A stretch of DNA of 64,000 bases from Diphasiastrum complanatum. Lineage: Eukaryota > Streptophyta > Lycopodiopsida > Lycopodiales > Lycopodiaceae. How positions within the stretch are numbered: position 1 is the stretch's first letter; every line of letters begins with the position of its first letter. The notes beneath the pieces were generated by a model. That model did not search any database. It was given only the letters and a program-made list of their open reading frames with translations, and was not told the DNA's origin. The stretch is from NCBI GenBank assembly GCA_029204225.1, contig MU831832.1, positions 38,141 through 102,140 of the forward strand, read 5' to 3'. Below are positions 4,888 through 49,741 of the stretch, piece by piece. The translations under genes were made by a program, and so were the position numbers.

Positions 4888-5070
4888 CTAATGTGTATGC
4901 TCGTCATTGGTGACTATCTGGGTTATGGTTGTGGTCGAGACGTGTGAATGAAGCTCAGAGCGGGTGATTGATAATCGAAGGCGAACATAATTAGATGTGG
5001 TGGCCAATAATTTGGGGGGATGTTTTGGATGGTTTTGACATGCATTGACATGAAGCTTTGACATCTTGAC

Positions 5071-5240
5071 GTGTGTGTGTGTGTGTGTGTGCTTTTAGGT
5101 GTGCATGTGTGTGTGCATGTGTATGTTTGTGTATGTGTGTGCGTATGTATGTGTGCATGTGTTTGCAAATGTATGTTTATGTTTGTGTGCATGCAGATGT
5201 ATTTGTGTATGTGTGTGTGTACGTGTGTGCATCTATGTTA
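5071..5240. repeat. Imperfect (TG)n-rich tract
   Basis: A perfect TG run at 5071-5091 is followed by about 150 bp of degenerate TG with TA, GCATG and TTTG interruptions. It looks like an older microsatellite. Confidence 0.85.
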
Positions 5241-5436
5241 AAATATTGGATAAAGAATAGATTCTGCAAAATTATAAAATACATCATACACAAAAAAATC
5301 CAAATGTACTCTTGTATACATTATGAAATTCAATTGTACTCTAAATAAAATTTGCAAACATTTCATGAAAGTCAATCTATGAAAACTTGATAAATCCAAA
5401 AGGGTATGCATTTCAATAGGACGTAGAGTCTAAATG

Positions 5437-5715
5437 CTACAAAATTTCATCGGTAAATTCATGCATAAGGTGAATTTGCTCCACCATAGTATCCAGCATT
5501 TGTCTTGAATGGTTAAGTCTCACAAATGAGACACTACTCATATGTTGTCTAATATTACACATAAACTCTTCCACATCTATTATTAAGCATCTATTTTGTG
5601 GAAGAAAATGTCCATTGAGCTGTTGTAAGTACAAAAAGTACGTAAACTGATCAATGACCCATACGACACTACAACTTTTGACAACATCTCCAAAGCAGCA
5701 GCTCCAAAACATCAT
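5437..5715 (-). other. Unrecognised 92-codon ORF
   Basis: An open minus-strand frame with ordinary amino-acid composition. I recognise no domain. It has no obvious splice partner nearby and lies between microsatellites, so it may be a TE scrap or chance. Confidence 0.15.
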
Positions 5716-6229
5716 GTACCAATGTTTGATACCTTATAACAATTTGGACCATCTACAAAAAAAACAAAAAGGTATTAGCTGATATACAAAATTTAATCTA
5801 CAAAGAACAAAGGACACAATATACACAAAACATGACTCAAATGTAATTAAAATTATGTTTATCTAAAATATATGTTATATATTTGAATATCATGTTTTGT
5901 AAGTAAACAATGGAATTTGTGGAAATTGCATATAAACATAAAGATATATATTTATAAAACATGACAAACCATTAATTTGATATACAAAGTGAAGCAAATA
6001 CCTTTTTCACAAAAAGTTGTTTGCTTCGCAGTGAATAATGAGCTCATCCAAACTGCATTTGTGCTTTGTTACATCTTCCACCAACTTCACGGAATTAAAA
6101 CTCACCGACATTACTAACATGCTTGCTGACTGGATTCAATATTCAAAGTTTGTCATCAAATAAGGTGCAAATATAAATCCCAATAACCCTTCTTTGCAGA
6201 CCGCTCCCAAACTACATCTATTTGTTGTG

Positions 6230-6476
6230 TGACACAGGCTATGCTACAACTTCCACCTAGGAGAATGCAGAACCTTTAAGTTGGGATAGGCTCTAATTGA
6301 TTAAGGGTTTTGACTACAGGCCTCTACAGTTGTACACAGATTTTCAACTTTGGCATTCACCAAAGTGATCGTGTACAGTTGCAGATGCCTACATCTAAAT
6401 ACTTGCAAGAATAAGAGCCTCTCCAAACTTGAAGGTACATTCTCCTAGGTGGAAGGTGTAGCAAAGCTTATGTCAA
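6230..6476. repeat. Inverted repeat with about 50-bp arms
   Basis: The arm at about 6230-6282 (around CTTCCACCTAGGAGAATG) is repeated in reverse complement at about 6424-6476 (around CATTCTCCTAGGTGGAAGG). The arms match at roughly 80 percent by eye, with about 140 bp between them. No coding sequence is recognised here. Confidence 0.6.
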
Positions 6477-6584
6477 ACAAACATTAATATTCACCAACTG
6501 GCAAAAAAAACATTTATGTTTATTGGAATGTACATACATACACATACATATACACACCCATACATATATACAGGATACACATGC

Positions 6585-6704
<120 letters not shown>

Positions 6705-6829
6705 TCACATACATACAGATACACATATACACAAATATACATAGACATACATATACATAGAAAAGCACATTTATACATACATATACACATACATATATGA
6801 AGGCACGCTCTAAAACTCCAAACATAATC

Positions 6830-7060
6830 TCCAACACTAATCCTAAAATCTACAGACTAACCTAACATTCACTCTTATCCTACCATACTTAACCCTCACT
6901 CAAACCCCAATCTTAATCTTCCCTAACATCTAGCCATAAACCTATTGCATGTCAACAATCCATAAATCTTAATCTAAAATCTTAACTCATAATTCTAAAA
7001 TCTAAATTCTTAACTTTAACCCTTACCTTTACTCCAAACAAACTACTAAAGCACTTCCAA
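6830..7060. repeat. C-rich, degenerate CCTAA/CTTAA-type low-complexity stretch
   Basis: Strand-biased sequence with many variants of CCTAA, CTTAA and TCTAAA on the plus strand. It may be a very degenerate telomere-like array or simple low complexity. It lies just downstream (minus-strand sense) of a helicase C-terminus. Confidence 0.4.
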
Positions 7061-7064
7061 ATAT

Positions 7065-7205
7065 ACAATGTTTTGAGTGCACCTGGCCACTCCTACCACA
7101 TCAATAAATTGGTCGTCATTGTCACTAATCAACACTCATACACTTGCTACATTTCACACTCTTGATAGTGCCACATATAGTTGACCATGACTAAATACAG
7201 TGTCG
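7065..7205 (-). pseudogene. PIF1/Helitron-type helicase, C-terminal fragment
   Basis: The minus strand encodes VFSHGQLYVALSRV (about 7160-7201), then a stop, then VLISDNDD and NIVYLEVL. The block FSHGQLYVALSRV is the characteristic final helicase motif of PIF1-family proteins, including the helicase of plant Helitron transposons. The spacing to a terminal NxVYxEVL is also typical. The upstream part is missing: the sequence gives way to a Copia LTR at 7242. It is non-functional. Confidence 0.7.
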
Positions 7206-7230
7206 AAAATGGTTGGTTATCATAAATGAG

Positions 7231-7241
7231 TTCTGATATTA
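7231..7241 (-). other. Degenerate Copia primer-binding site
   Basis: On the minus strand this reads TAATATCAGAA directly after the LTR end, against the usual TGGTATCAGAGC complementary to initiator tRNA-Met. The flanking bases TGAG and TGTCGTA also fit the common Copia boundary. Two or three substitutions have accumulated. Confidence 0.55.
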
Positions 7242-7566
7242 TGTCGTAAAAACGATGGAAATGCGGAAGGATCGACTGATATCGGATCAGTAGAAATCTA
7301 ATAGAAACCGAAAGTCTGATATCAAATCAGAAATGTGTAATATCAACGTAAGTTTTAGCAATAGATGGTTGCGGATCGGAAGCGCATTAGTTACCAGCAA
7401 CAATAATCAAGATGAATGAACAATAGGAAATGCACAATAGAACAAAACAGTAGTGTAGACAAAATTTGCACTCTGATTGAAAGAATGAGTACAATAGCTT
7501 GAAGCAACAGAGCTTTCAAGATGCTCATTACCGAATGGATTTTGGCTTGAGCATTGAAACCCAACA
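7242..7566 (-). repeat. Copia LTR (325 bp), minus orientation
   Basis: On the minus strand it begins TGTTGGGTTTC right after a purine tract (AAGGGAGAG, 7567-7575) and ends TACGACA just before a primer-site-like sequence. It therefore has a 3'-LTR boundary on one side and a 5'-LTR boundary on the other. The internal region at 7567-9214 enters it from the right. Confidence 0.65.
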
Positions 7567-9214
7567 CTCTCCCTTAATGTGAATCCTGAAAAACTTCGAT
7601 CTTCAGATTTAGCATATTGCTAAATCTAAGATGGTGCTCCTTGGATAGTGCTATCGTGAAGTAATTTGCTGCCATAAAATCTGTCCTGCAGTAAACCAAT
7701 GACAATTCCTTGATTTGCACTTTCTCTCTAAGGTTTTGATATGCTTGCTCTGAGAATGAAATCTCGGATTTAGAGATAGTGCGATTGTGCTTTGATTATC
7801 ACAATAGATAGTCGTTGGATGTGGCTGAGCAAGGTCGATATCTGCAAGTAGGTTTCTTAGCCAATTGCCTCCTTGGTAGCATTTGTGACAGCTATGTATT
7901 CCAATTCTGTTGATGATAATGCTACTAATGTCTGTTTTCGGCTGTACCATGAGATTGGTCCTTGATTGAACAAGAACACAAATCCAGAAGTCGATCTTCT
8001 GGTGTCGATATATCCTACCCAATCTGCATCTGTGTAACCTTTGAGCCAATGATGGCGAAAATGGATACTGCTTCATTTTCTCCTTTTATGCCTTGGTTTG
8101 AGGACATTGCTCCTTTGACAGCTTCAAACCAAGGTCGAGTGGGAAGTAGCTCGATTTCCAGTTGGCCATTCTATATTTGTCCACGTTGGTGAGATATCGT
8201 TGTTGACTGAAGAAAAGTTGTTTGCTGGATTGAATTCATTGAATCTGAATTTCGAGACAGTAATGGGCTGGATCCATATCAGTCATCATGTATTCCTATG
8301 ATAGCATGCATTTGGTGTCCTTCAACAAATTCAAATTTTTACTAAATAGTAATGTATCATCTACATAAAGAGTGATGATTATGAAGAAATCTGATACAGA
8401 CTTGAAATAGACATTCGAGTCTGTCGAGTTTGGAATGAAACCATTCTCGATTAGAAATGCATTAATTTTCTGGAACGAGGCTCTTGGTGACTGTTTCAGA
8501 CCATATAGAGTCTTGTAGATTTTGCACACTAGGTGCTCCTTATCCTTCAGTTCGTATCCCTATGGCCGCAACATATAAATCTACTCTTTGATCGTCTCGT
8601 TGAGGAAAGTGGTATGGACATCCATTTGGTGGACTTCAAGATCTGCTAGAGCTGCATAGGAGAGTAGTAATCGAATCAAAGCATGCTTCACAACAGGGCT
8701 GAAGGTCTCGGAATAATCCAGATCTAGAATCTGGGAGAAGCCTTTGGTGACCAGCATGGCCTTGTATCGATTTAATCTTTCTTCAACATCATACTTCGCT
8801 TTATATATCCATTTGCATGGAATTGGATTTCGATCCTTTGGCAACACTATTACATTCCACGTTTGATTCTCGATCACAGAATCAAATTTTGTATCCATTC
8901 CAGCCTTCCACTGATCAGCATTAGGTGTTGACATTGCCTCTGAAATAGTGTTTGGTTCATGCACAAAGTAGCAGACTAGATCACTCATAAATCGGGATGG
9001 AGTTGTCTGGATCAGTTCGATCTTCTAGGCTGAATTTTGATCCTCTGATTGATTCAATCCGTTGGTCCTGACTCATCTTTCGAGTCAGTATATAGTCATG
9101 ACACAAGGTGCTAAACAATGTAACCCAACTAAGCAATTGTGCTAATTGATAATAAAGTCTTTTGAAGTCCTTATGTGACTTGGAATCTCCAAAATATATA
9201 TTTTTGCCATACAT
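7567..9214 (-). pseudogene. Ty1/Copia reverse transcriptase-RNase H remnant
   Basis: Reading leftwards on the minus strand, the RT N-terminus lies at 8581-8988 (WKAGMDTKF, PCKWIYKAKYDVEERLNRYKA, HQMDVHTTFLN). The RT core follows at 8296-8529 (YGLKQSPRASF, ITLYVDDTLLFSKN, the YVDD catalytic motif intact). A linker follows at 8080-8290 (QQRYLTNVDKYRMANWK), then RNase H at 7651-8076 (WLRNLLADI, TTIYCDNQSTIALS). Several frameshifts and stops separate the pieces. No integrase is seen, so the element is truncated on its 5' side near 9.2 kb. It ends at the purine tract and LTR at 7242-7566. Confidence 0.85.
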
Positions 9215-9575
9215 TTAGAAGCATGAGATGTGACAAACTACTCTCTCTCATAGGTCATGTGCTAAAAAGCACCTGAGTGAAATGATCAATGACGAGACTC
9301 AAGTACTTATGGTGAATAGCATGAAAAGCTTTTCAGCTTTGCATGCTCTTGAGAATTTTGAGTTTTGATAATATTGTTCTGTTGCTACTTCTTTTTTGAT
9401 TTATTGTTAATCCTAATCTTGAAGCCTTTAATGTCATGGTTAATTTATTTGTAATATTTTTTATACTAGCTTACAATTATTGGAGAGCTGATCACAAATG
9501 TGTAATTGTGCACACCACAATGAGCAACATAATAGGAAGCTTGTGAATGTTTGTAAGTGGCATTGCATCAAGGGA
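9215..9575. other. Unassigned sequence left of the Copia insertion
   Basis: No gene recognised. It is the left flank of the 9581-15605 Copia. The right flank encodes a helicase fragment, so part of this stretch may belong to the same disrupted element. Confidence 0.4.
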
Positions 9576-9580
9576 GAGAC
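9576..9580. repeat. Target-site duplication GAGAC (left)
   Basis: GAGAC occurs directly before the left LTR and again at 15606-15610 directly after the right LTR. This is the 5-bp duplication expected from LTR-retrotransposon integration. Confidence 0.9.
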
Positions 9581-10230
9581 TGTGAAAGATTTCAGATCCT
9601 TAAGATCCAATCTACTTGAATGATCTTTGGTTAGAAAGAGAAATACACTACCAATTTCACCAATGTAGAAAAAATCAGCATCTACACACAATTTGAGATG
9701 CAAACACTAATAGAACTTGATCAAACTTGAATGAAATGATTATGTACTGTTGTTGTCCGTACAAAACCAGCAAGCTACTGTATTTCACACGTGTGGATCC
9801 AAAAATAACAAATATAGATCATTCTACACATAGAATTGCAAGCAATCACCAAGATAGTCACCAATGGATAGTAGAACCCAAGAGAACCATGTATAAGCAT
9901 GAAATGAGATAGAGAAGAGAGAAGATGACTCTCTCCACGAGTTACATCCTTTTATAGCAGGTCCAAACCCTATTTGGCCACTTGGCTTTCCCACCAAAAT
10001 GCTAACCCTACCAATTTTGGGTCTAGATTCAATGTACCCAACTTATTCAAATTGAATCTACTCAAACTCGCATTCTATCTTCCCCACACTTTCAAAAAGT
10101 GTTTATTCAAATGAAATTTAGACTAATGAACTTTGAAAAGTCAACCTCTAAGTCTAAAACAAGTTTTGGCCTAAATATGCCAAATATGGAAATATTGCAA
10201 AATGTAATGAAACTAGTTGAATCTTTCACA
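9581..10230 (-). repeat. 3' LTR of the Copia element
   Basis: Begins TGTGAAAGATTTC and ends GAATCTTTCACA in plus-strand text, giving short terminal inverted repeats and TG..CA ends. It aligns over its whole length with 14955-15605. Confidence 0.95.
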
Positions 10231-10812
10231 CTCCCTCTTCAACTAGTTTTAGCATAGACTTTGATAATACTCCAAGTGAAGTCCTATGCTTCATGAACAA
10301 GTCTTTTCTCAATGCTTTGGTGAAGATATCAGCTACACATTCCCTTGAAGACACATGTTGAAGCTCCACCTCCTTTGCAATGACTCGCTCCCTCACAAAA
10401 TGATATTGTATCCCAATATGCTTGCTCCTAGCATGAAAGATAGGATTTGATGCCATTCTTTGGGCTGATTGATTGTCAAAAAAGATGATTGGGCTCTCTG
10501 AAAAATCCAGCAAGTGAAGATCCTTGATCATCCTTTTGATCCATACCATCTCCTTTGTGCAATGTGTAAGAGCTTTGTACTCGGCCTCACTAGATGACAA
10601 TGAGATAGTGGCTTGTTTCTTTGACATCCATGATATAGCTCCATCACCTATGAAAATACAATAAGCACTAATGGATTTCCTATCCATTACATCTCCAGCA
10701 TAGTCCGAATCTGAAAATCCAAAAAGATTAGGTGATGATCCCTCATACAATATGCCAAAATCTCGAGTTCCAATGATGTACCTCAAAACTCGCTTTCCTA
10801 GCTTCCAATGCT
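10226..10812 (-). CDS. Copia RNase H domain (separate frame)
   Basis: The open frame starts at HWKLGKRVLRYIIGT (from about 10812), the normal junction between RT and RNase H in Copia, and runs to LVEEGV with its TGA formed inside the LTR. All RNase H landmarks are present: GFSDSDYAGD, SLSSSEAEY, IFFDNQSA and the C-terminal ECVADIFTK. The frame differs from the upstream module: a TAG lies just before EHWKLG. Reverse transcriptase, normally joined directly upstream, is absent. Confidence 0.88.
10231..10243 (-). other. Polypurine tract of the Copia element
   Basis: Minus-strand GTTGAAGAGGGAG immediately precedes the 3' LTR. It is the usual place for plus-strand priming. The RNase H reading frame ends within it and into the first bases of the LTR. 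Confidence 0.7.
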
Positions 10813-10814
10813 CC

Positions 10815-11880
10815 TAGCATAGTTTTTGCCAATAGAACTTTGATCCATCATAAGAATGATCTTCTTCCTAAGAATAGATCTCCTTTCAATGATCATGTAA
10901 TGCTCAAAATAGAAACAACCATAATTGATATAGAGAATAGTGTCCACTTGGGATGCTTCACTATTTCTTACATCAATTTTACATGTAAAAATGTGACTAG
11001 AACATGAAGAATCAAATAGAATGTAAATGAAATGATTCCACCATGCTTCCAACTCTGAACTCTCTGGAAAAATACAGCAAACAAACAATAAATGTGAGTG
11101 ATCAACTTTTGCTTGCATGTCTCCTCCTTCTTTGTCCTTTGTTGCCATGTATCCACCATGATACTCCATGAATGAGCCTCCATCTTCATCTTGCCACAAG
11201 ATACCATCAAACCTTAGAAATCCATGAGTAGGTGAGTACATTAATGATGAAAATCCAGCACCACATGACTCCATAAACCAGGTAGGTTGCACTAGTCCAT
11301 CTTCAAGATCTACTTGACACAAGAAAATGACCATGAATTCACCAAAAATTGACAATCTCCAAGTATTGGCACCAAGTAGCTCAACACTTGCGAACTTAGC
11401 CATGGATGAGTGACATAATGAACCTCCAATAGCTTCATTTCCATCAGCAAAATCAGCCAAGAATGCTAGTACAAATCCAACATCAAAACAATGCTCACCA
11501 ATGTAGCTAGTTTTACCATATCTTGACAATTTGCACACATCCACATGAAATTGCTCAAACATGAGATAGAAAAAGTAAAGTAAACTTGAACAACACTTCC
11601 TTGATGCTCCTTTGACCTTACTTGAGTCTTCAATATTCTGCAAAAATAGATCCATAACACCTTTGCCAATTAGCTCTCCTTTGATACTCTTGACTAGCTC
11701 CAAATTGCCACCTTCCCTTTTGACTAGTTGAAGCGCTTTGAGATCAACCTCTTGATCTTCAACTTGACCATCAAAGTCATTGAACAAACTTTGTTTTCCA
11801 GATCCATTACTTGATTTTACAGCAAGATAACATCCGTCCACTTGCATAGCTCCATGTACACAAGAAGATCCTCCAAAAGA
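10815..11880 (-). other. Unrecognised module in the position of Copia reverse transcriptase
   Basis: Between the RT N-terminal stub (EEEWIQAMDLEYQALMKSET) and RNase H (HWKLGKRVL) lie about 1.07 kb that stay open in the integrase frame for about 360 codons. It has no RT motif: no QMDV, YGLKQ or YVDD. Landmarks are GGSSCVHGAMQVDG, NGSGKQSLFNDF, GGNLELVKSI, HCFDVGFVLAFL, GILWQDEDGGSF and KIDVRNSEASQVD. I cannot assign it to a family. A related copy is at 48340-49127. With stops at 3 in 64 codons, 360 open codons are improbable by chance, though this does not prove the module encodes a protein in this frame. A captured host-gene fragment is the simplest inference. Confidence 0.75.
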
Positions 11881-13491
11881 TGTTTCACTCTTCATAAGAG
11901 CTTGATACTCAAGATCCATTGCTTGGATCCACTCCTCTTCTTTCCTTGCCTGATCTACACCTGTAGGCTCATCCAAAGAGGTTAGAAAAGCAACATAATT
12001 TCCAAAAACTACTTGCTTACCCTTTTGATCATATGTGAGCCTTGAAGGTACTTGTATTTCTCTTGATGTTCTCCTTGGCTTTTGACTTGATGAAGGTCCA
12101 TCATCACCACCATCCAAAGTAGGATCCTTCTCATCAACATCAAGAATGTTAGATCCATCTACTTTACCATCAATCATGCTTGAAGACACCTTTGGAATGT
12201 TTCCCTCATCAAAAATGACATCTCTACCAACAATCACTTTGTTAGTAGAAGGAATGTAAACCTTGTAGGCTTTACTCACCTCACTATATCCAACAAAAAT
12301 ACCTCTTCTTGAAGATGGATCCTCCTTGGTCCTATCATCAAGAGTAATGCTGACATAGCATGTGCATCCAAAGGTTCTTAGAAAGTTGACACTCGGCCTC
12401 CTCGTGAATAGCATCTCAAAAGGTGTCCTTCCATCCAAAATAGCACTCGACCACCTATTGCACAAGAAATTGGCACACAACAAAGCTTGATCCCAAAATA
12501 GTTTGTCAAGATTGGCACTTAACCTCATAGCTTTAGCCCTTTCACATAAAGTTCTATTCTTCCTTTCAGCCACTCCATTTTGTTGTGGGGTCCTTGATAT
12601 TGTATACTCCCTCTTGATCCCATGCTCATCACAAAAGGCCTTGAACTTGTTAGATATGTACTCACCACCATTGTTTCCTCTCAAGCACTTGATCTTTGTG
12701 GAAAATTGGTTCTCCCTTGCATTCTTGAACTTGACAAAGACATCATACACTTCATCCTTGCTCTTTAGTAGATAGATCCAACAAAATCTACTAAAATCAT
12801 CAATGAATGTTACATACATCTTAGCTCTACTATTGCTAATTGTAGTAAATCCATGAATATCCGAATGTACAAGTTGAAAAGGCTTTGTACATCTAGAAAT
12901 AGATCTAGTATAAGGTAGTCTATGTGACTTAGACAAAGCACAAGACTCACAAACATGCTTGTCATTACTTAAGGAACTTGGAAGACCAATCACAACCTTC
13001 TTCCTTGCCGTTACCTCCAATGACTTGAAGTTGAGGTGCCCCATCCTTTTGTGCCAAACCTCTTGAATAGAAATTTGCTCCCTTGCAACACATCCACTTT
13101 GGTTAGCAATAACACAAGCATCAAGTTTGAACAACTTCCCTTGCCTTTTACCTTTTCCAATCAAGACATCCTTCCTTTTGATCAAACAAGCATCTCCATC
13201 AAACTCCACCTTGAGGCCCTTACTTAGCATTTGACTCACACTAAGCAAATTCTTGGTAATAGATGGAATAAACAAGACATCCTCCAAATGAAGATTCCTA
13301 TCTGTAGAGAGAGAAATACGAATTGTGCCAATCCCTTTGATTGCACACTCACCATCATTGGCCATGTAGATCACCCTCTTGTCATCTCCATATGCCAACA
13401 AAGAAGTGAAGTATTCTTTGTGAAAGGTCATGTGTGAACTTGCTCCACTATCAATCCACCAAGGATCTAGATCTCCATCATTAGCAAGCAT
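11880..13491 (-). pseudogene. Copia protease-integrase region and RT stub
   Basis: Domains in order: protease WWIDSGASSHM (residues 11-21), GAG-pre-integrase VWHKRMGHLNF (145-155) with a CESC pair (181-184), integrase core from VHSDIHG (D211), and the C-terminal GKQ region. The second catalytic position reads RGNNGGEY instead of the usual R-S-D-N-G-G-E-Y, so Asp is Asn (residue 273). Glu309 in PQQNGVAER is kept. Only about 20 residues of RT remain (to residue 537) before the foreign module begins. The frame starts at 13491 after two small shifts relative to gag, so a single polyprotein is not made. Confidence 0.9.
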
Positions 13492-13494
13492 ACA

Positions 13495-14355
13495 TCACAA
13501 AAGCATCATCATTTGCATCTTGCACATCCAAACCATCTTCATCAAGAGTAAGATTACCTTGCTTGTCTCTTGATCTCTCTTCTTCTTGTAGCACTCACTT
13601 GCAAAGTGTCCTTTGATGCCACAATAGAAGCACTTGAGCTTTGATCTATCCTTCTTTTTGCCACTTGAAGAAGCATCCACTTGATCTTGCCCTTTAGACC
13701 ACTTGCTTTTGGTTTTTCCCTTGAATTTGCCCTTTGTGAACATAGCATCCTCTTGAAGTGTCGATGTAGATCCACCTCTTGCTTGAAGCCTATATTCCTC
13801 ATTGATCAAGATCTCTTGAAGATCCATCAAACTTGGCAAAGTCTTTTGAATAGCAATACTTTGAACAATGTTAGCATGAGCATCCAACAAGCCATTAAGA
13901 ATCACTTGAATAAGCCCTCCTTCCTTAATGCTTTCATCTATGCAAGCTAACTCATCATTCAATGCTTTCATTCTCAAAACAAAAGTACTTGGACTTTCTT
14001 CATTCTTTTGCAAACAAGAAAAGATTTGCCTTCTTAGAGTCAACACTCTAGAAGTAGACTTGGATTCATAAAGCTTCTTCAATGAATTCCAAGCTTCCAA
14101 AGATGATGTGCACTTACCAACTTCCTTGAGAAGTTCATTGGTAACATTCATCTTTATCATGTGTAGAGCCTTCTTGGCCCTCTTGTCATACCTCAATTGA
14201 TCTTGTTGTGTTGCTGGTCTCTCCTCCAAACCTACAACAATATCCAAAACATCATTCATCTCAAGAAGTGACTCCATCCTCACTTTCCATAATGAATAGT
14301 TACTTGAGGTAAGCCTATCATTGGCTTCCAACATGACTCCAATTGAGGTTGCCAT
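13495..14355 (-). CDS. Copia gag (UBN2-type) with zinc knuckle
   Basis: A 286-residue frame starting MATSIGVMLEANDRLTSSNY, with the typical Copia gag opening (SNYSLWKVRMESLL) and the central SLKKLYESKSTSRVLTLRR block. A CX2CX4HX4C knuckle (CFYCGIKGHFASEC) lies near the C-terminus. Its last 25 or so residues are out of frame: one frame over, the expected linker (QGNLTLDEDGLDVQDAN) leads towards protease. Gag packages element RNA into virus-like particles. This copy could still do so. Confidence 0.88.
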   Translation of the reverse strand: MATSIGVMLEANDRLTSSNYSLWKVRMESLLEMNDVLDIVVGLEERPATQQDQLRYDKRAKKALHMIKMNVTNELLKEVGKCTSSLEAWNSLKKLYESKSTSRVLTLRRQIFSCLQKNEESPSTFVLRMKALNDELACIDESIKEGGLIQVILNGLLDAHANIVQSIAIQKTLPSLMDLQEILINEEYRLQARGGSTSTLQEDAMFTKGKFKGKTKSKWSKGQDQVDASSSGKKKDRSKLKCFYCGIKGHFASECYKKKRDQETSKVILLLMKMVWMCKMQMMMLL

Positions 14356-14941
14356 GTAGCAATGACCTGATCTTATCTTTCAACCTACTTCAATGCACAA
14401 AGCACTCCTTTGAACAACAACAAATGCTTTCAAAAAAAATCACCAAGATTTGAAACTATCTCACAAATTCTCTTCTAGCACTTATCCAAGCAAATCAACA
14501 CATAGAATCATGGAATCTTGATCAACCTATGATCTATCCTCAATCTAATGACTTTTGCCACTTCCTAAGATTGAAACACACTCAAATGAAGTCCAGCAAC
14601 CTCACTATCTAGAGATCCAATCAAAATTAGGGTTTTGACAAAATCAAAAAAATTGACTATTCCAAATCTACATGCAAATGCTGAAAATTTGATATGCAAT
14701 CTATAAGCAACCACTTAGGTTGAACCAATGATCCAAAAATCAGCCAAATCCAGCATGTGAATTCAAAAATCGGAATTAAACAAGTATATTGACCTATTTA
14801 GTGTTTTGATCTACAAAAGATCCAATCTACAAAAGCAAAAAATCCGATTTTGGTGTAGAATCCTCTCTAGCATGCTCTAGACTTGATATCTTCACCAAAT
14901 CATTGATAGATCTGATTTCCTCCTTCATAACCTGAAACACA
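14356..14941 (-). other. Copia 5' leader
   Basis: About 590 bp between the primer site and the gag ATG. AT-rich, no ORF of note. Such untranslated leaders usually carry the packaging signal. Nothing specific is visible here. Confidence 0.6.
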
Positions 14942-14954
14942 AGCTCTGATACCA
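14942..14954 (-). other. Copia primer-binding site (initiator tRNA-Met)
   Basis: Minus-strand TGGTATCAGAGCT starts at the base next to the 5' LTR. It is the classic plant Copia site complementary to the 3' end of initiator tRNA-Met. Confidence 0.95.
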
Positions 14955-15605
14955 TGTGAAAGATTTCAGATCCTTTAGATCCAATGTACTTGAATGATCT
15001 TTGGTTAGAAAGAGAAATACACTACCAATTTCACCAATGTAGAAAAAACCAGCATCTACACACAATTTGAGATGCAAACACTAATAGAACTTGATCAAAC
15101 TTGAATGAAATGATTATGTACTATTATTGTCCGTACAAAACCAGCAAGCTACTGTATTTCACACGTGTGGATCCAAAAATAACAAATATAGATCATTCTA
15201 CACATAGAATTGCAAGCAATCACCAAGATAGTGCACCAATGGATAGTAGAACCCAAGAGAACCATGTATAAGCATGAAATGAGATAGAGAAGAGAGAAGA
15301 TGAATCTCTCCACGAGTTACATCCTTTTATAGCAGGTCCAAACCCTATTTGGCCACTTGGCTTTCCCACCAAAATGCTAACCCTACCTATTTTGGGTCTA
15401 GATTCAATGTACCCAACTTATTCAAATTGAATCTACTCAAACTCACATTCTATCTTTCCCACACTTTCAAAAAGTGTTTATTCAAATGAAATGTAGACTA
15501 ATGAACTTTGGAAAGTCAACCTCTAAGTCTAAAACAAGTTTTGGCCTCAATATGCCAAATATGGAAATATTGCAAAATGTGATGAAACTAGTTGAATCTT
15601 TCACA
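14955..15605 (-). repeat. 5' LTR of the Copia element
   Basis: Full-length partner of 9581-10230, one base longer, with about 14 substitutions by eye. It is followed by the GAGAC duplication at 15606-15610. Confidence 0.95.
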
Positions 15606-15870
15606 GAGACTTCCAACCTTTGAAAATCTACACAAGATCTTGTTACAGGAGGAACAATGGTGAGAAGTGATGAGGCTTCCATGGTACATAAGTATGCCAT
15701 CGAGTGTGTGGATCGGTCACTACGTGACATATTGGGTATTGAAATTCCATTTGGAGGGAGTTCCGATCATTTTTTTTGGTGATTTCTGTCAGGTGCTCCT
15801 GGTTGTACGACAAGGCAATCGTGCACATATTGTGAGACCTTCATTGAAGTGCTCGCATTTGTGAAAATAT
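15606..15870 (+). pseudogene. PIF1/Helitron-type helicase fragment
   Basis: Plus-strand conceptual translation gives SDEASMVHKYAIECVDRSLRDILGIEIPFGG (about 15667-15760), then, after a one-base shift, VPIIFFGDFCQVLLVVRQGNRAHIV. This matches the Walker-B region (DEAPM..) and the following GGDFRQVLPVV motif of PIF1-like helicases as found in plant Helitrons. The Walker-B Pro is Ser, and GGDFRQ is FGDFCQ. The Copia element sits immediately upstream. The fragment is non-functional. Confidence 0.75.
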
Positions 15871-15939
15871 ATGGAGATGCACAAGCTGCCATTGAACATG
15901 CACGTTATGGGTGTGAGAAATTGTCAGCTAGTTTGATCT

Positions 15940-16160
15940 TTTCTGTTTGGCAATTGAGGCCAATTTGCATTTTTAGACTTAGAGATATATATTTCAAAGT
16001 TATATTAGTCTAAACGTTTTTGAATTACCACTTTTGGAAAGTGAGGAAAAGTAAGTAGGCGAGTTTGGACCCATTCAAATTTGAATGATTGGTACATTGA
16101 ATCTAGTCCATATTATGAGTAGGGTTTCGGATCTAGAAGTTTCTATAGAGGGAAGCCACA
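15940..16160 (+). repeat. Degenerate LTR piece related to the 9.6-15.6 kb Copia, opposite orientation
   Basis: Plus-strand blocks TTTTTAGACTTAGAGATATA, ATTAGTCTAAA, CACTTTTGGAAAGTG, GCGAGTTTGGA, GGTACATTGAATCTAG and GTAGGGTTTCGG occur in the same order as in the reverse complement of the Copia LTR. Identity is low to moderate, so this is an older relative. Confidence 0.55.
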
Positions 16161-16419
16161 TTGTAGAAGTTCATTTGTTGATGGAATTGCTCAATCAATT
16201 GAGTACAGAGTAAGGTGACTCTCAGTCAGTGATGGCCAACCAGTAGTCGCTATCAGATAGCGATGGTCAGTCAAAAAAGAGTTTCATTAATGGCTTGCTA
16301 ATTTGAAGAAACATGCACTCATGTTTGTCATAGAATAAGTACACATATCTTGCATAGGAGTGCGATGAAGTGTCCTATAGAAATGCGCTTGAGTTTCCTT
16401 GGATGGTAGTTAGAAATCA

Positions 16420-16859
16420 GAGTTAATCTAATATACATTTTATGTAAGCTCTAAATGTGATATTGTAATTAGTGTACAGTTAATTAGATTTGTTGTATTC
16501 AGGTGTATTCGGGATGTGACCCGTTAGGATATATTGATCGAGCACTGATCCCGTAGATGGCTACTTGGGTTAGCCGGGTAGCCACACATAGGAAGAATTA
16601 GCTTGTACATAATTTTATACAGTGTATGCTATACTCGAGGGCATGTCTCGAGTTTGTCGGTCGAATGTGGCCATATCAGGCCCGACCTTAGTTTGACAAG
16701 TGGTAGGCCAATTTTAGGACACCTACCTTTTCATGCAGTTTGTGAATACTCTATATGTACAATGTTTTTTTGTAATCTATTAACTTTTGTTGATAAGGAG
16801 TGGCTATGGTGATTGTGTGATGTGATCTGCATACTGCACTAGATTCTATCGGAATTTCA
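16420..16859 (+). repeat. Copia-type 5' LTR (left limit approximate)
   Basis: It ends GGAATTTCA at 16859, four bases before a perfect primer site. Its last ~155 bp (from about 16705) recur at about 18746-18920. Blocks such as GTGAATACTCTATATGTACA also resemble the LTR at 43617-43890. I cannot fix the left edge by eye. Confidence 0.55.
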
Positions 16860-16862
16860 ACT

Positions 16863-16874
16863 TGGTATCAGAGC
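16863..16874 (+). other. Copia primer-binding site
   Basis: TGGTATCAGAGC, complementary to initiator tRNA-Met, lies just after the LTR end in the context AACTTGGTATCAGAGC. Confidence 0.85.
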
Positions 16875-18740
16875 GTCAGGGTGTTGCAGGTATGCAGGAT
16901 CCGGTGGAGCTATGGGATAGCATCTTTCACCAGGAGAAATAGCACTCAGAGCGTCTTAGGAGAGAGGACTCCATACAAGGTATCGGCAATCCGGATGGCT
17001 AGAGAAAGCAAAGTTCCCTCGATCGAAGCTTTGAGGAAGATCAGAACGATCGTCGTAGGTGGATTTCGGGGAGAATTCACGGAAAAACTTGTAGTTTTGG
17101 TGGTTTCGAGGAAGTCATTGATGGTGGCTTCATAATTCATTGTGTGGATAGTCGTTTGGTGCAACGGGGCTTGCATGAGAATGCAAAGAGCGGTGATGGA
17201 GAGCCATAGAAATTTACAAGAGCAGATTGGGTGGAAATCTGAGAAAATTGCAAAATTTTCAGATTCTATGAGCTATTGAAGACTTTCTCAGAAAAGCGGA
17301 TCTTTAGCGGACAATTGGACACCAATCGAATAGCTGTAAATTTGATCACTGAGCTAAAGGAAGGGCGACTCAGTCAGATGATGATCTGCAAGAGAAACCA
17401 TAGGAAATTGTGGTGTAAAAAGCCCAAAGGTCCTCTCTTTCTCACAGCTAGGGTTTAAAGATGAAAAATCATGGATCTCTCTCTCCACATAACTATTTCT
17501 GGAACTATAAAAGTCCAGTGGAGGGCGCCCTGATGAGAGGATGGACATTGGCGGCCGTGGAGCAGACATAAAGAGGTCGTGAGAGAACCAAGTGGGTTTT
17601 CAAACCCCATTCAAGCAACCATACTTGGAAAACCTGGAGGAGGAAGTAGAGGTGAAGGAAGGAGAGCCGTGGAGGAGGCGCAGGCCTCGCGCGCATCCTA
17701 CGAGAGGGAGGCCATAGCGTCTTGAGGAGCACAACGGCCGAAAGAGTTTGGATAAGTGCACAGATGGGTGTAGGGCCATTGGATCTGGATCCATGGAGAT
17801 CCACGGTCAGGATGTGATGCTTGGGGAGCAATATGGACTGCAGGATCAAGAGCCACCATTGGGATGCAAGTAAAGGGCCATGAAGGGCCAGAATGAAGTT
17901 TCTTCATTAAAAATTCTCAATGAGAAAGGCATTGAAGGGACTCAAAGTCCAGAATGGACTTCACTTCCTTAAAAATCTTCATTATGAAGAATCAGTTCAA
18001 TTTTGCAAGGCATATTGGTTTTGGGCCTAACCTTGGCTAGAGGGCACCTTTTTTGGCCATCCTTGGGCCAAAATAAACCCTGAAACTAGCTGCTCAGAGC
18101 CAGCGGATAGAGCAACGTCACAGAGCAGGGAAAAACATGTTTTGAGGTGTTTTCATCACCATTCTACTGAGCAGAGTGCTGGTGACCTAGTGATGGGCTA
18201 CATTCGCTATTTGGGTACCGTAGGGCCAAATTTGGGGCAATCTTTTGGCTTGTGAAACCTGCTACAAGGTGGTACAATGAGGCATTATTACTTCAAAATC
18301 ATTATTACTTACTCTTGATAGGGTAACAGGGTGTTTGGAAGCGGTAAATGTAGTATGGGGGCAAATGGTAGCAGAATTGTGTGGAGAAAGCTAGTTTTGG
18401 CGATGAAAGTGCAGTTTGGCGGCGTGACTACTCATCATTGGCGACAATTTTGAGAGGGCAAGCATCACAGGTGAGAGGTAGGCATGGTATGCTGGTTACA
18501 AGTGAAAAATTCTTGTGATCAGGTTCAACTCTTGGGGTTAGAACCGACCAACGTCAGGTGGCATTTTGGGGGAACGCTCTCACAGGCATGATCGACAATA
18601 GTATTGTCGAATCAAGTGATAGCTTCATTGACGCACGCATCTGTAGCTTGGAAATTTTTTGTTCAGAGGGAAATATGGGCTAGCTTGGAGGTACACACAT
18701 TTTGGCAGTGACGGGTGATGGAAGTGCGAGGTGGTGCCTA
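16875..18740 (+). mobile_element. Internal region of a coding-less Copia derivative
   Basis: About 1.9 kb between two LTR copies with no gag or pol motif. Stretches (GCTAGGGTTT, GTGGGCGCCCTG/GAGGGCGCCCTG, GGCGGCCG, CACCATTC) recur in the same order in the 40.4-41.46 kb leader of the Copia on the same strand. It therefore looks like a family with a long GC-richer leader that has lost its whole coding region, a LARD- or TRIM-like non-autonomous derivative. This is inference; the element boundaries are approximate. Confidence 0.5.
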
Positions 18741-18920
18741 TTGGAGGCCAGTTTTAAGACACCTGCCTTTTCATGCAATTTGTGAATACTCTATATGTAC
18801 AGTGTTTCTTTGTAATTTATTAACTTTTGTTGTGCCATCTTTGAGAGCTTATGAGGAGTGGCTACAATGATTGTTTGATGTGATCTTTATATTGCACTAG
18901 ATTCTATCGGAATTTCAACT
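18741..18920 (+). repeat. Second LTR copy of the coding-less element
   Basis: Repeats the block from GGCCAGTTTTAAGACACCTG to TCTATCGGAATTTCA with about 85-90 percent match to 16705-16859. It carries a ~24-bp insertion (around TGCCATCTTTGAGAGC). Upstream LTR sequence is missing or too divergent. Confidence 0.6.
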
Positions 18921-21217
18921 ATGGTTGCAGGATTTTTGATTCAAAAATGCGACGGATCTCTGCTACAACATCGGCTCCCTAATTGGTAGTAGAAAGCGCG
19001 ATAAGATCTATTATGGAAATGCGCTAAGGTCTCATCTGGAAATGTGCTCGAGTCTCTTCTGAAAGTGCGCCCAGATCTCTTCTAAAAAATGCGCTCAAGT
19101 CTTTTCTCAACCATTTTCCTTATTCCACCACCTCAGTCGGGCCATTAAAGTGCCATTTTCATCTCGCGCTTCAAAACGAGTGATAAGAATTCAAGATCAG
19201 CCGAAGTTCCTGAGACTTAGGAGTAGTCTTTGATGGAAGTGCATGCAAACTTTTAGTCCAAGAGAAATAAGGCTCACTTTGTAGTGTGTGAGGTGGGTTA
19301 GATTAGGTGAAGGTAGGTGGCTTAAGATTTTTAGATTTGGCCTTTAATCTTAATTTTTATTGTCTCAAGCTAGGATTACATCCCAAGTGCAAAACATTCT
19401 AGGGTAGAGAGTTATATGCCCATCTTATCTTGTGTAATTTTCTTCAATTCCTAGGCTCTCTTTTTTTTTTCTAGAGGTTGCCCATCCTCAGTCATAGTGG
19501 AATGTGACCAAAAGGGTGATCAGTCCTTCGGTCTCTTCTTCAATTTTTTAGAGACTCGATTGAGCCTTCTTTATAGACTCGATTGAGCCTTCTTTATAGA
19601 CTTCGTAAAAAGCCTTCTTGGTTACTATCTTTAAGCTTAGAAAGCTTCTAGTTTTGATTCTTGCTCTTCGGGCACTTTCTCGAGTACCTGCACATACCCT
19701 TCAATGAAAGGTTAGTCCTTAAGCCCAGAGGGCTTCTTATTCTTATTTTTGATTCTTCAGGTACATTTGTGAGTAGTTGCACATCCCTTCAAAGAAAAGT
19801 TAGTGTTCATAATACCATCAAATATGATTTTCTTAGTTCTACAGATATCAATGCTTGTTACTCAATTCATAAACTCCTGCAATATTGCAAAAGAATATAA
19901 TTTCATATTATCAAAGTCTATAAGGAGTTTAAAGCTGGGAAACTCTTTATTTCTTTGGGGCAATTTGTATCTGCAAATTACAATTGGTCAAACTTTTGAT
20001 GTTTAGAAAGATGGGTCCCTATTTTCACATGATGCAAGTGAGATTCTAAACTCCTTTACTCATAAAATGAACAACTCCTCAAAAGAATGGATTCACAAAA
20101 TACTTTGTCTTTTTCTAGTAGTTTGAAAATTTCTTTTGCCATGATGTAAGTGTGCTAGAGGATCTCCAAAAGTATATCTTATGCATATATTAGAATCATA
20201 CTTTAGTTGAAGGCTACCCACTCATAAAATCAATTGTACAAGACATTTAGGCTCCCTTCAATATTGTTGTCCACACTGAAAAAAAAGAAATTTCTTGAAT
20301 TTGAATTCTTTTCCTTCTCAAACAATGCACTTAAATTTTGAGGCTAGGACAACAACTCTTCAAGTTTATATGCACATCCCCTTCATGATTATCAAACTTG
20401 AATAGTTCATGTCATTGCAGTCGTGCTTCCTTCATGACTTTAATGGTGGTGGAGAGCCAGAGCTTTAGTGGACTTACTAGAGGTAGAGCTTCTATTTCAG
20501 CCATTGTAATGACACTACATTCTTTACATGGAAAGCTCTAGTCCATGGCACAAATATCTTGAGTCGACCCTTCCCATGCCCTATGCCTAGAAGTTTAGAT
20601 GCACGATCTCTTATGATCTCTTGAAAAATATGAGCAACATGGGGGACATAAAGAGATTATGTAGCTTCTCTCATTCCATTAAGTAGCTCCATAGAGAGAA
20701 CATTCACTCTTTCCTACAATCACATGCTTCTTGTTTGTTGTTTATAAATATTGTAAAGCACTGACCCAAATGTGACTTATTTTCATTGCAACAAATATAA
20801 AAGGTTTAGTGTAAACCAATTCATATATGGCCCCCTAGAGATGGTGCAATTTACAGCCTAGGTTGTTATTCCCTACATAAGTCTACAAAAGCTTGCATCC
20901 AAAGGAGCTATTCCTAGGAGCGTGGTTTATAGAAGAGAGATCCAACATGATCAAGTTGTAGCCCACAAGATCTATAGCCCACATAAGCTTGTAGCCCTAT
21001 AAAAAATAATAAATATTATTATCATTTCTTCTTTCGTGAGATAGAGATGTAAACACCCTAAATTTGAAAAACTACTAAAATGATGGCTAAAATTAAAAAT
21101 GAATGTAATGCCTACTTTATCAAATGTAAACAAGAAGATTTAGCTTGGAAGACTAAACATAGTCACACTCAAAATAGTATGAAAGCTATTCAAGGGGAGC
21201 AGCCCACATGATAATCC
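18921..21217. other. No gene seen
   Basis: Short unrelated ORFs only. A 23-26-bp tandem duplication (GACTCGATTGAGCCTTCTTT) is visible around 19555-19605. No domain, LTR end or RNA gene recognised. Confidence 0.5.
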
Positions 21218-22885
<1,668 letters not shown>

Positions 22886-22889
22886 AGAT

Positions 22890-22970
22890 AGAACCACCAG
22901 TTGGCAAGAAACCCATTGGTTGCAAATGGGTATATAGAACTAAGTACCATGCAGATGGAAGCATAGCAAA
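22890..22970 (+). pseudogene. 81-bp patch of Copia reverse transcriptase
   Basis: Encodes EPPVGKKPIGCKWVYRTKYH and continues ADGSIAK. It differs from 42134-42214, inside the Copia RT on the same strand, at only three bases. Similarity stops sharply on both sides. Confidence 0.85.
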
Positions 22971-23484: not shown

Positions 23485-23489
23485 GACTA

Positions 23490-23735: not shown

Positions 23736-23759
23736 AAAGCATAGATCTCATTCTATTTC

Positions 23760-46137: not shown

Positions 46138-47639
46138 GATAAGGGGTGAAGACCAAGGAATAGGGCTGCCCACTTTTGATGAAGATTAGCTTGGATGGAA
46201 GCAGATTTAAAGATGTTATCTTGTGGACCTTTTATTGGGAACAATGAATATTCTATCAAGTCGAAAAGCACAAGGGTATCGCCAAACAAGATAAGCTGCA
46301 GCGTAGTTACAATGCATTCTCGAGACGTTGCATTCTTGGCTTAGTTAGAGAGTGGAGTGCATATTACTTTCCATTATTTTAAAATTATTGGTGGAATTTG
46401 TTTGAGGACATACACTTGAATATAGCAATTGAAAACTGGTGTATAATATTTCCTCAGGTGTGAAATGAGAGCATTAATACAAATGCCACTCATTTATATC
46501 TATTACATATAGAAGATGTCAAACTTGAATATTGAAATTTGACTTGCATAATCTAGCAATTAAGTGTGTGATTATGAGATTGAGCATCTTATTGGCGTCC
46601 ATGTACAATGCGTACACTTAAAAAAGCTTGCGATGTCTTGCATGAGGAAGCCAATACAATTGGATGTAGATGGAGCCCAAAATATGCTAGGAAACTCCTG
46701 CATTTTCAAATTCATGGGTCTACAACTTGTCAAACATTTTTCATGACAACATGCACCACAAATGGCTATGTCTACATCTTGAGTTGCTACTTGGATGTGC
46801 TCATTAATAAACTATATCCACTATGAGATGCGTCAACCATGCTAAGGAAAAGGGTGCTCATGCGAGAAGATGCTAAAATGTTGATGATGGCTCTTCTCCT
46901 TCATACGTCTTTCCACCTATCTGCTATGATGAAACACACATATGTAGCACAAGGAGCAATGACTCTGTGATTTAAATAGATTATACAAATAAAATACCGA
47001 CCTCTAAAGCATCACACATGTTGATATAGCTAGCTAAAAGTCGATGATAATTACAATAAGTTAAGTTGAGATTTGAAGTTTTTATATAGATAGCCTATTG
47101 ACAACATAGAATAGATCATTTGCGAGTATGAACCATAGATATTTCCAATGCTAGATGTCATGTGTTGTATCCACATGAATTATGATTGTTCGTACTCCTA
47201 TTTGTTGAGATTCAATAGAAATCAATGATTGTTGGATTTTCTCTTGCTTGTATTGTGCCATCAATATAGATGTTGTTGTATCTTCTTGTTTATTGAGCTT
47301 GCCAATTCATATCAACGATAATAAGATTCAATGGATGTCATGGATTTATTTTGGGGTATTCAATTTCTAGATCTATTCCTTGCCTTGGAATATAAATCAA
47401 GTTGCACTAATTTGTTTGAGAAATGACAAAGATTTTTAATTTCAATGACATATTGTCTTTTCTAGCTATTCTCTTAATCCGGTATTTTTTTAAAACATTT
47501 TCAAATCAAGAAACTAAATATAGGAAACTATTTAGATTATAAATCACATCACTCATCTTTTTTTCTCATGCATGCAACCTATGTAATGTTAAAAAAACAG
47601 ATAACAAAGATCCATTTATGCCCTTTGATCTTTGGCTAA
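46138..47639. other. No gene recognised
   Basis: One plus-strand frame at 46608-46826 (KKACDVLHEEANTIGCRWSP, YARKLLHFQIHG) has protein-like composition but no family I know. The rest is AT-rich with nothing supported. Confidence 0.35.
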
Positions 47640-48206
47640 TACGAAGAGCACATCTAGCTTCATTAAGAATGTAGAAATCTTGCATCTACTACACATAGAG
47701 GATATAAACTCAATAAGAACTTGTCAAAAACACTTATGTAAGTTAATTTACTATTCCAATCCATACAACAATCATACTCACCTGTGGGAACTCATACACA
47801 TAAGAAAATTAGCATTCTATACATAAGAATTTACTATATCACCACATATATGCAAAAAATGGATGTAGAACCCAATGAGATATCTTCAATAAGAATGAAT
47901 GAGAGAAGAATGAGAGGGATAAATTCCTCCCACGCTTGTAGCCTATTTATAACAGCCTCTGGCCCTATTTGGATCATCTTGCCCAAGCTTATCCACTTAT
48001 GAAAGTTTCTAGACACTTCTCTAAAAAACTAGATAACTTGACTAGATTCAATGTACTTCTTCTAACCAATTAGATTAGGTCTAAATTCGACCTTATCAAC
48101 TTGCATAAGTTTCCAAAAATAGTAAATCCACTATTCTTAGGCCTTATTAACTTTATAAAGTTTATTTCAAAGATAAAAAATGCATATTGGTCGGGCTTAC
48201 ACAACC
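47640..48206 (-). repeat. Probable LTR of the truncated RT-less Copia (copy B)
   Basis: Follows the layout of the 9581-10230 LTR: a GAGAGAAGAATGAG-type stretch, a TTTATAACAG promoter-like box, CCCTATTTGGATCA, TAGATTCAATGTAC, then AAATTC blocks. Similarity is modest and the edges are unclear. Confidence 0.45.
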
Positions 48207-48339: not shown

Positions 48340-49127
48340 TAGCTTTCATAACTAATATAGAGAGTAGTGTCCACATTGGATGCTTCACTATTTCTTACAT
48401 CAATTTTACTTATCAAGATGTAACTAGAGCATGAAGAACCAAATAGAATGTAAATGCAATGATTCCTCCATGCTTCCAACTTTGAACTCTCTGGAAACTA
48501 ACAACAAACAAACAATAAATGTGAGTAATCAACCAATGCTTGCATGTCTCCTCAATCTTTGTCCTTCCTTGATATGTCTCCACCATAAAAAGCCATGAAT
48601 GAGCCTCCATCTCCATCTTGCCATAAGATATCATCATCAATTGATGACTTGATCATGAATGAGTGATATAATGAGCCTCCCTTATCTTCATTTCCATCAA
48701 CAAAACCATCCAAGAATACTAGTACAAATCCAACATCAAAATGATGCAAAACAATGTAAGTGGTTTCACCATATCTTGACAAGTTGCACACATTCGCATG
48801 AAATTGCTCAAACTTTAGAACAAGTAAAGTAAACTTGAACAAAACTTCCTTGTTGCTCCCTTGACCTTGATTGAGTCTTCAAACACCTGCAAAAGTAGAT
48901 CCAAAGTATCTTTGCCATTTAACTTCCCTTCAATGCTCTTGACTAGCTCCAAATTGCCACCTTTCCTTTTGTGTTGTTGAAGCTCTTCAAGATCAATCTC
49001 TTCATCTTCCTCTTCAAAGTCATTGAACAAAATTTGTTTTCCAGATCCATTAGTTGCTTCCAATCCTTGAAAACCACCACCCATTTGCATATCATCATCT
49101 ACACAAGAAGATGAACCAAGACATGTG
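48340..49127 (-). pseudogene. Second copy of the RT-replacing module
   Basis: Matches the module at 10815-11880 in the same orientation: LGSSSCVDDDMQMGG, TNGSGKQILFNDF, GGNLELVKSIEGKL, FEQFHANVCNLSRYG, HHFDVGFVLVFLDGF, DILWQDGDGGSF and SKIDVRNSEASNVD. It has a frameshift near 48840, others later, and lacks an internal ~60-codon stretch present in the first copy. Its left end stops near 48340, with no RNase H beyond. Confidence 0.85.
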
Positions 49128-49741
49128 AGTAAAGCAAAGTTTGTGCTTTCAACTTGCTTACCCTTCTCATCGTATGGAAGCCTAGATGGCTTTTTCATTT
49201 GCTTTTAGGATATTCTTAGAATTTGAATTGGAGAGGCATCTCCACCATCACCATCCAAAGAACCATCTTCATCACCATAAAAAATGTTAGATTGATCAAC
49301 ATCAACAACATCAAGCTTATCCACATTCCCCTCTTCAAAGACGACATCCTTAGAAATGTGAACTTTCTTTGACTTAGGAATGTAAACCCTATATGCTTTT
49401 CTTACTTCACTATAGCCCACCAAGATTTCTTGCAAGTCCTCCATACTTGAAAATGCCTTTTGAATAGCAAAACTTTGAACAAGATTAGCATGATCATCCA
49501 ACAAGCCATTAAGAACTACTTGAACAAGTTCTATTTCCTTACTGCTTTGATCAATACATGCTAACTCACCATTGAATGCTTTAACCCTCAAAACAAAAGC
49601 ATGAGCACTTTCATCCTTCTTTTGCAAAATTTGAAAGATTTTCTTCCCAAGAATTAGAACCCTTGATGTAGACGTGGACTCATAAAACTTCTTTAGAGCT
49701 TCCCAAGGCTTCACTAGATGTAGTGCACTTACCAACTTCCA
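49128..49741 (-). pseudogene. Copia gag fused directly to integrase C-terminus
   Basis: The frame 49205-49735 begins as gag (ALKKFYESTSTSRVL...LVQSFAIQKAFSSMEDLQEIL) and switches within one codon to the integrase C-terminal region (VGYSEVRKAYRVYIPKSKKV). The rest of gag, protease and the integrase core are missing. A second frame (49198 downward) carries the linker KPSRLPYDEKGKQV into the module. Similarity to the 9.6-15.6 kb element ends at about 49741. Confidence 0.85.

Follow-up and report, generated by a model that had tools for sequence, protein, structure and literature searches.

A young, high-copy Copia family of Diphasiastrum complanatum with an open module in place of reverse transcriptase

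Autonomous-nonautonomous pairs of LTR retrotransposons include Dasheng/RIRE2 in rice and SNRE/SARE in soybean. Elements known as LARDs, TRIMs, or TR-GAGs have either no coding internal region or gag only, in some cases with protease. Dasheng and SNRE are named as non-autonomous LTR elements in PMC3701649, and TR-GAGs are presented in PMC4608283 as elements that keep gag. Tos17, a Copia element of rice, cleanly lacks one essential part and, in the account of PMC3977881, is thought to use the product of another element. The maize LTR element Bs1 carries foreign coding sequence, with pieces that PMC13317346 attributes to named host genes, and the wheat and barley elements Veju and BARE-2 are chimaeras ascribed to switching between co-packaged RNAs (PMC13317346; PMC1950507). 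Plant LTR elements with additional ORFs, as treated in PMC7264820, have, in many copies, extra open frames whose source is not known.

Here we describe a locus that shares features with each of these systems and departs from each of them. The window, by which we mean the whole analyzed stretch of 64,000 nt of Diphasiastrum complanatum DNA (GCA_029204225.1, contig MU831832.1, positions 38,141-102,140, forward strand), contains an insertion, element A. Compared by description, A is like Dasheng/RIRE2 and SNRE/SARE in being a high-copy non-autonomous element beside potential enzyme suppliers, but unlike Dasheng and SNRE it retains gag, protease, integrase, and RNase H sequence, and reverse transcriptase (RT) alone has given way to an open module in the integrase frame. 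In Tos17, by contrast, gag is missing and RT is kept, and that account describes nothing in the place of gag. Bs1 resembles A in carrying foreign coding sequence, but its parents are named in that source, whereas no convincing Pfam or PDB relative of A's module was found. Veju and BARE-2 are summarized as having gained unknown sequence or part of an LTR, whereas A's family appears to have exchanged the RT domain. The additional ORFs, as outlined in their source, lie mostly between pol and the 3' LTR, while the module replaces RT inside pol. Among the titles and abstract openings listed for open-licence PMC papers, none described a family of plant Copia elements in which an open module had taken the place of RT.

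Element A is a complete Copia-type LTR insertion without RT, located at window positions 15605-9581 on the minus strand (Table 1). Its primer-binding site is presumably a match to initiator tRNA-Met, and the Pol_BBD segment with the DSGA motif is taken to be the protease region. Tos17 and Lullaby are given an identical 12-letter primer-binding site (PMC3977881). LTRs with inverted ends, a 5-bp target site duplication, a primer-binding site, a polypurine tract, a Copia gag, and integrase upstream of RNase H mark A as a Copia element; the one such mark that is absent, RVT_2, is found at the equivalent place in an RT-bearing relative. The open reading frame (ORF) at 13494-10801 matched Pol_BBD, GAG-pre-integrase, integrase core, and SH3-like domains in Pfam (E <= 1), and no match to RVT_2 or any other RT family was among them at that threshold. 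The RNase H ORF, likewise without a Pfam family at E <= 1, was identified through its DNA identity of 98% to the piece that follows RT in the relative. A was considered as a LARD, TRIM, or TR-GAG and ruled out, since gag, protease, integrase, and RNase H sequence are all retained. The integrase motif reads RGNNGGEY in A and RGDNGGEY in the RT-bearing relative, the changed residue being, we assume, at the position of the second catalytic Asp. In addition, a stop separates gag and pol in A (window 13495-13560, minus strand). Gag and pol form a single frame without a stop there in 10 of the 12 fetched module copies that cover this place, the exceptions being L009 and L019; the other 8 of the 20 fetched copies do not span it.

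Table 1. Window positions of the parts of element A and of copy B, a second element with the module
Feature	Position	Strand	Basis
Element A
Target site duplication GAGAC, right copy	15606..15610	+	flank sequence
5' LTR, TGTGAAAGATT...AATCTTTCACA	14955..15605	-	97.85% identity to 3' LTR; ends read
Primer-binding site TGGTATCAGAGC, adjoins 5' LTR	14943..14954	-	sequence read
gag: Retrotran_gag_2 (E 2.1e-25) and zinc knuckle	13498..14379	-	Pfam
Pol_BBD (E 4.4e-26) with DSGA motif	13216..13461	-	Pfam and motif
Integrase core, rve (E 4.4e-10)	12586..12885	-	Pfam
SH3-like domain, retroviral-type pol (E 2.2e-26)	12193..12405	-	Pfam
Start of RT region, stub EEEWIQAMDLEYQALMKSET	11881..11940	-	RVT_2 of RT-bearing relative starts directly past here
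Module, 1070 nt in place of RT, integrase frame	10814..11883	-	same two junctions in 20 copies, apart from substitutions
Module part missing from B-type copies	11210..11400	-	missing length is a net 174 nt (8 of 10 older copies) or 182 nt (L042, L043)
RNase H ORF	10229..10813	-	frame differs from module; 98% identity to RNase H of RT-bearing relative
Polypurine tract TTGAAGAGGGAG, precedes 3' LTR	10231..10242	-	sequence read
3' LTR	9581..10230	-	comparison with 5' LTR; inverted ends TGTGAAAGATT/AATCTTTCACA
Target site duplication GAGAC, left copy	9576..9580	+	flank sequence; 5-bp duplication of A
Copy B
gag remnant	49421..49740	-	sequence comparison with A
Integrase tail, in frame with gag (one stop later)	49152..49426	-	sequence read
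Module, older and shorter; two stops by A's frame, one 4-nt frameshift	48347..49126	-	
LTR, weakly similar to A's	47620..48162	-	E 2.3e-13

The original prediction for this DNA described integrase running into an RT stub that ends at ALMKSET and then, in the same frame, about 360 open codons without RT, a length of openness beyond chance. ORF and Pfam analyses agree with this description. The frame from 13494 to 10801 comprises 898 codons without a stop and runs through both integrase and module; 360 open codons follow ALMKSET, up to a stop at 10800-10798. Pfam detected no RT motif or family in the module stretch and placed these 360 residues in no family at either E <= 1 or E <= 10. Among 2,000 dinucleotide shuffles of the module, the longest open run in any of the six frames was 188 codons, and none reached the module's open length. 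Two details had to be amended. RNase H does not simply follow the module, because the stop at 10800-10798 ends the module and RNase H (10813-10229) is read in another frame, a difference that no indel common to the 20 module copies removes; and the RT that had been expected to be of similar or larger size is represented in the nearest RT-bearing relative read by 887 nt, against 1,070 nt of module. Protein searches with the module or the integrase against viral and genome contig collections without plant genomes yielded no relative. We considered the module as an ordinary nested insertion, with ends and a target duplication of its own, and it does not look like one: the direct repeat (27 nt, 74%) and the inverted repeat (26 nt, 73%) at its two ends are too weak, no convincing ends or duplication were seen, and it begins and stops where the RT region does.

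Several other sequences lie near A in the window. Next to A's 3' LTR (7651-9024, minus strand) are pieces of RT (RVT_2, E 2.3e-28) and of RNase H from another Copia element, and a related LTR fragment in opposite orientation lies just outside A (15922-16126, plus strand; E 6.6e-15). A long (TA)n tract at 6500-6800 gives open frames on both strands. Farther along, at 41437-43560 on the plus strand, is a reduced Copia element with the opposite loss, in which a gag piece is followed, after at most about 20 nt, by an RT-RNase H frame, without integrase; its RT measures 885 nt from TW to THW.

A is one member of a Copia family that is young, non-autonomous, and present in high copy number. In the 1.74-Gb host genome, a 34-letter pattern spanning the module/RNase H junction had 1,053 matches with at most two mismatches, located on at least four chromosomes among the matches listed, and the reversed pattern, used as a control, had 0; the count may be inflated because unplaced contigs may repeat chromosomes, copy B itself having two identical counterparts. 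The module query returned 4,071 first-look candidates, and the best 40, which were scored, all cover almost its full length; the window's own match is at 100% identity and the others are at 98-99%. In all 20 module copies fetched with flanks, integrase, module, and RNase H (at least parts of integrase and RNase H) stand in a row, with both module junctions alike apart from substitutions. Since they were picked from the best module matches, these copies lean to young, unbroken ones. At a rate of 1.3e-8 per site and year, eight copies with two LTRs were dated to 0.66-1.22 My, and A's own insertion to 0.78 My; five of the eight have matching 5-bp duplications and three do not. An essential enzyme is missing, copies are many, insertions are recent, and an RT-bearing relative has near-identical remaining parts, all of which characterize a non-autonomous derivative. 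That a chance open frame, an assembly error, or a local duplication accounts for the module is exceedingly improbable, being refuted by the shuffles and by more than 1,000 junction matches, on at least four chromosomes among those listed.

Among the best 40 of the 4,071 candidates, A's module has no second match at 100%, whereas B has its two identical counterparts; A may have inserted recently or be specific to one haplotype. We looked for an empty A site on contig C19, which carries a B-identical copy, but the stretch fetched there was not collinear, and megablast matched none of it to window 5001-25000.

The RT-bearing relatives indicate where the module entered. A degenerate pattern for the start of RT, EYQALMK..TW, had 1,732 genome matches, from any element with the motif, and 20 of these RT-motif loci were read. 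The nearest relative among them shares 97% identity with A over integrase and 98% over RNase H; the 887 nt between its stub and RNase H encode RVT_2 (E 8.1e-79) from residue 2, which implies that the exchange took away the RT domain from its beginning up to where RNase H starts. At two of the 20 loci, L042 and L043, a module stands instead of a whole RT. When copies were chosen by RNase H, the 20 best after A and L009 included 14 with the module and 6 with RT upstream; in one of the 14, L066, no more than the final 136 nt of the module are seen, and L050 and L055 are also without roughly the 174-nt stretch that most older copies lack (Table 1).

An integrase tree was built from 35 rows, comprising 18 module, 16 RT-motif, and 1 B-type sequence, with rows of less than 700-800 nt of integrase left out. 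Seventeen of the 18 module rows, together with one RT-bearing row, make up one group, which sits at the end of a ladder of RT-bearing rows; branching over much of this tip is poorly resolved. L014, the remaining module row, lies outside a group (98/90) holding four RT-bearing rows, a placement that hints at a second origin or a later exchange. Module copies are thus nested among RT-bearing ones on the integrase tree, and by this comparison of sequences the change is read as a swap of RT for module inside one family.

The module is also present in elements of another kind. Copy B (49740-47620, minus strand) has a gag remnant, an integrase tail, the module, and an LTR in that order, and its LTR is 55% identical to A's over 618 sites in a forced alignment that extends somewhat past the LTR. 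Searching with B's module gave 6,475 first-look candidates; among the best 40, three are identical (B and copies on contigs C962 and C19) and the other 37 are 86-89% identical. Short flanks were read for six further B-type copies, and in all six the last 33-38 nt of RNase H come after the module, which at its 5' end continues the upstream Copia frame (6 of 6). In L070, L073, and L075 the last part of the module leads in frame to the C-terminal end of RNase H, with intervening stops or shifts. L025, a further B-type copy, continues into the RNase H end, a polypurine tract, and an LTR, and L042 and L043 represent a third arrangement, in which about a dozen RT codons lead to the module and then to an LTR. 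The occurrence of the module in B-type elements and in this third arrangement implies that it is older than A's family and was joined to Copia sequence at at least three different points.

We dropped the idea that copy B is a patch derived from A, given that the further B-type copies show it to be a regular representative of an older type that carries the module. Nor is B, the copy at 48.3 kb, a duplicate of the A locus, as had been allowed for at the outset: the LTRs are weakly alike and the gag sequences differ at dS 0.57. Eight of ten older copies lack the net 174 nt present in A, and L042 and L043 lack 182. The exact donor module was not found among the B-type copies read, six of which have modules 79-85% identical to A's over the first half and are without its 174 nt. 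At 1570-2396 of L025, a B-type module copy meets a truncated gag of the A-type in head-to-head orientation, so that two related elements are joined in inverted sense. Further diverged fragments of the module occur at L012 4-94 (76%) and L037 214-511 (79%); all module copies with surroundings worked out, a set apart from these two, lie in Copia sequence.

Divergence between A and B is not uniform along the elements. For gag, dS is 0.57 and dN/dS is 0.35; for the integrase tail the values are 0.76 and 0.42; and for two parts of the module dS is only 0.19 and 0.15, with dN/dS of 1.01 and 0.82. The low module dS means that A and B have had the module in common for less time than the genes around it. 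Within the first of these parts, 32% of sites differ in the first 75 nt and 14% in the remainder, a change-point reached by 9 of 1,000 permutations. Recent exchange of the module between older lineages best explains this A-B divergence. The same low divergence might be expected if the module were kept for its RNA, for packaging or structure, but we regard this as very improbable: folding energies of 200-nt segments were not clearly below those of shuffles for 10 module pieces of A and B (z -1.9 to +2.5), while two gag pieces reached z -2.8 and -3.1, and recent exchange already accounts for the lower divergence.

The original prediction held that a fragment of a host gene had been captured and fixed in an RT-less, trans-mobilised Copia family. 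The RT-less family stands, on the junction count, the uniform arrangement of the fetched copies, the insertion ages, and the RT-bearing relatives. The capture from a host gene is possible, though no convincing Pfam or PDB relative was found and the module copies with surroundings worked out lie in Copia sequence. In its strongest form, this reading has A's family itself capturing the fragment from a transcript and the fragment still making a useful protein. The 360 open codons in the integrase frame favor it, as does codon usage above a first-order null (z 5.1), though other frames, above all one reverse frame of the first half, score as well. An AlphaFold2 model from the single sequence had a pLDDT of 33, which is weak evidence against it. 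The variants weigh more heavily. Across 33 of 34 module copies (L066 was excluded as too short), the 102 shared variants fall 33/36/33 over the codon positions, and 24 of them are synonymous, against a neutral expectation of 20.2%. In the integrase of 16 RT-motif loci, shared variants are distributed 47/41/112 (p 8e-11). (The RT-motif loci L029-L048 numbered 18 after the module-bearing L042 and L043 were dropped, and 16 were long enough for integrase and 9 for RNase H.) The even distribution in one and the third-position excess in the other indicate that the module has no visible amino acid constraint, whereas the integrase of RT-motif loci is constrained. In the 20 module copies, integrase leans synonymous (12/10/14; 13 of 36 synonymous versus 20.6% expected), and there are few sites in gag (3/1/2) and RNase H (6/8/2). 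Comparison of A with five older modules gave dN/dS near 1 (B, 0.94; L025, 1.23; L042, 0.77; L043, 1.19; L037, 1.13). With the module already present in older B-type elements, these results make a useful protein from a host fragment captured by A's family decidedly unlikely. Direct capture of the module by A's family is in any case unlikely, and the comparisons suggest instead that this family acquired the module by way of another reduced Copia type and had no gene as its immediate source.

The frame itself may be a different matter. A reading that we think less likely than not, but that is compatible with the preferred one set out below, is that an ancestor of the B-type captured the module long ago and that only its openness matters, not its amino acids. 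In A and ten older copies, stop-making changes account for 2 of 170 shared variants, versus 9.0 expected (p 0.005, in a test chosen after the data were seen), and for 12 of 298 singletons, versus 18.6 expected (p 0.065), while shared module variants are spread evenly over codon positions (55/58/52). The integrase of RT-motif loci, for which the stop test took 16 of the 20, gave 1 of 250 versus 8.3, with positions 59/49/142; the corresponding figures were 0 of 36 versus 1.7 in the integrase of module copies and 2 of 16 versus 1.0 in their out-of-frame RNase H. Also consistent with a role of the frame are the divisibility by three of the 174 nt by which 8 of the 10 older copies differ from A, the continuation of the upstream frame in all six B-type copies, and the frame shared with the RNase H C-terminus in L070, L073, and L075, interrupted as it is. 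Against this, A and B alone gave 2 stops versus 5.0 expected (p 0.11), the young A-type modules do not avoid stops (5 of 104 versus 5.8), the 182-nt difference in L042 and L043 is not a multiple of three, and the six B-type copies, taken by themselves, have a slight surplus of synonymous changes (17 of 51, p 0.034). A slowly decaying frame from a coding ancestor could give part of the signal. Taken together, the shared-stop deficit, from a test selected post hoc, and the even codon positions suggest an open frame without amino acid constraint in the older type only.

The observations support the model, which we consider very probable, that the young, high-copy A family arose within an extant RT-bearing family when RT was swapped for the module, and that it presumably spreads in trans. 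Under this model, a particle of the RT-bearing family would have packaged one of its own RNAs together with one B-type RNA that already held the module between the integrase tail and the last RNase H codons. Two template switches during reverse transcription would then have produced an element whose LTRs, gag, integrase, and RNase H came from the parent but whose RT had been replaced by the module. The A family probably took its module from the B-type by such template switching, and frequent recombination of this kind has been reported for Onsen of Arabidopsis (PMC5668417). Ectopic DNA exchange is a possible alternative, since the junctions share just short letters (AACAT; CTAG/GAG). Keeping its LTRs, primer-binding site, polypurine tract, and gag, the new form would multiply on the enzymes of its RT-bearing relatives. 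That RT is borrowed from these relatives is probable because so many RT-less copies exist beside close RT-bearing ones, and it is from copy number and ages that we draw this. Element A, in which the integrase motif is altered and RNase H is out of frame, is probably supplied with all of its enzymes in trans.

A more far-reaching reading, which we think unlikely, makes the module a frame-keeping filler, passed between at least two reduced Copia types, with amino acids free to drift and the frame kept open in the older type. The frame would there extend open from the integrase tail to the last RNase H codons, and a broken long frame would perhaps expose the RNA to decay or hinder packaging; the A-type would have taken up the filler in place of RT and then outnumbered its RT-bearing parent among the copies nearest A.

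The preferred reading, the swap of RT for module within one family, leaves a pair of elements. The RT domain alone has been exchanged and its neighbors kept, and the module form exceeds the RT parent by 14 to 6 among the 20 copies nearest by RNase H. Having the same integrase and the same RNase H, with either RT or the module between them, the two forms provide a clean pair for asking, “what must a retrotransposon parasite keep?” The pair would serve equally for the question of whether an open frame is itself selected.
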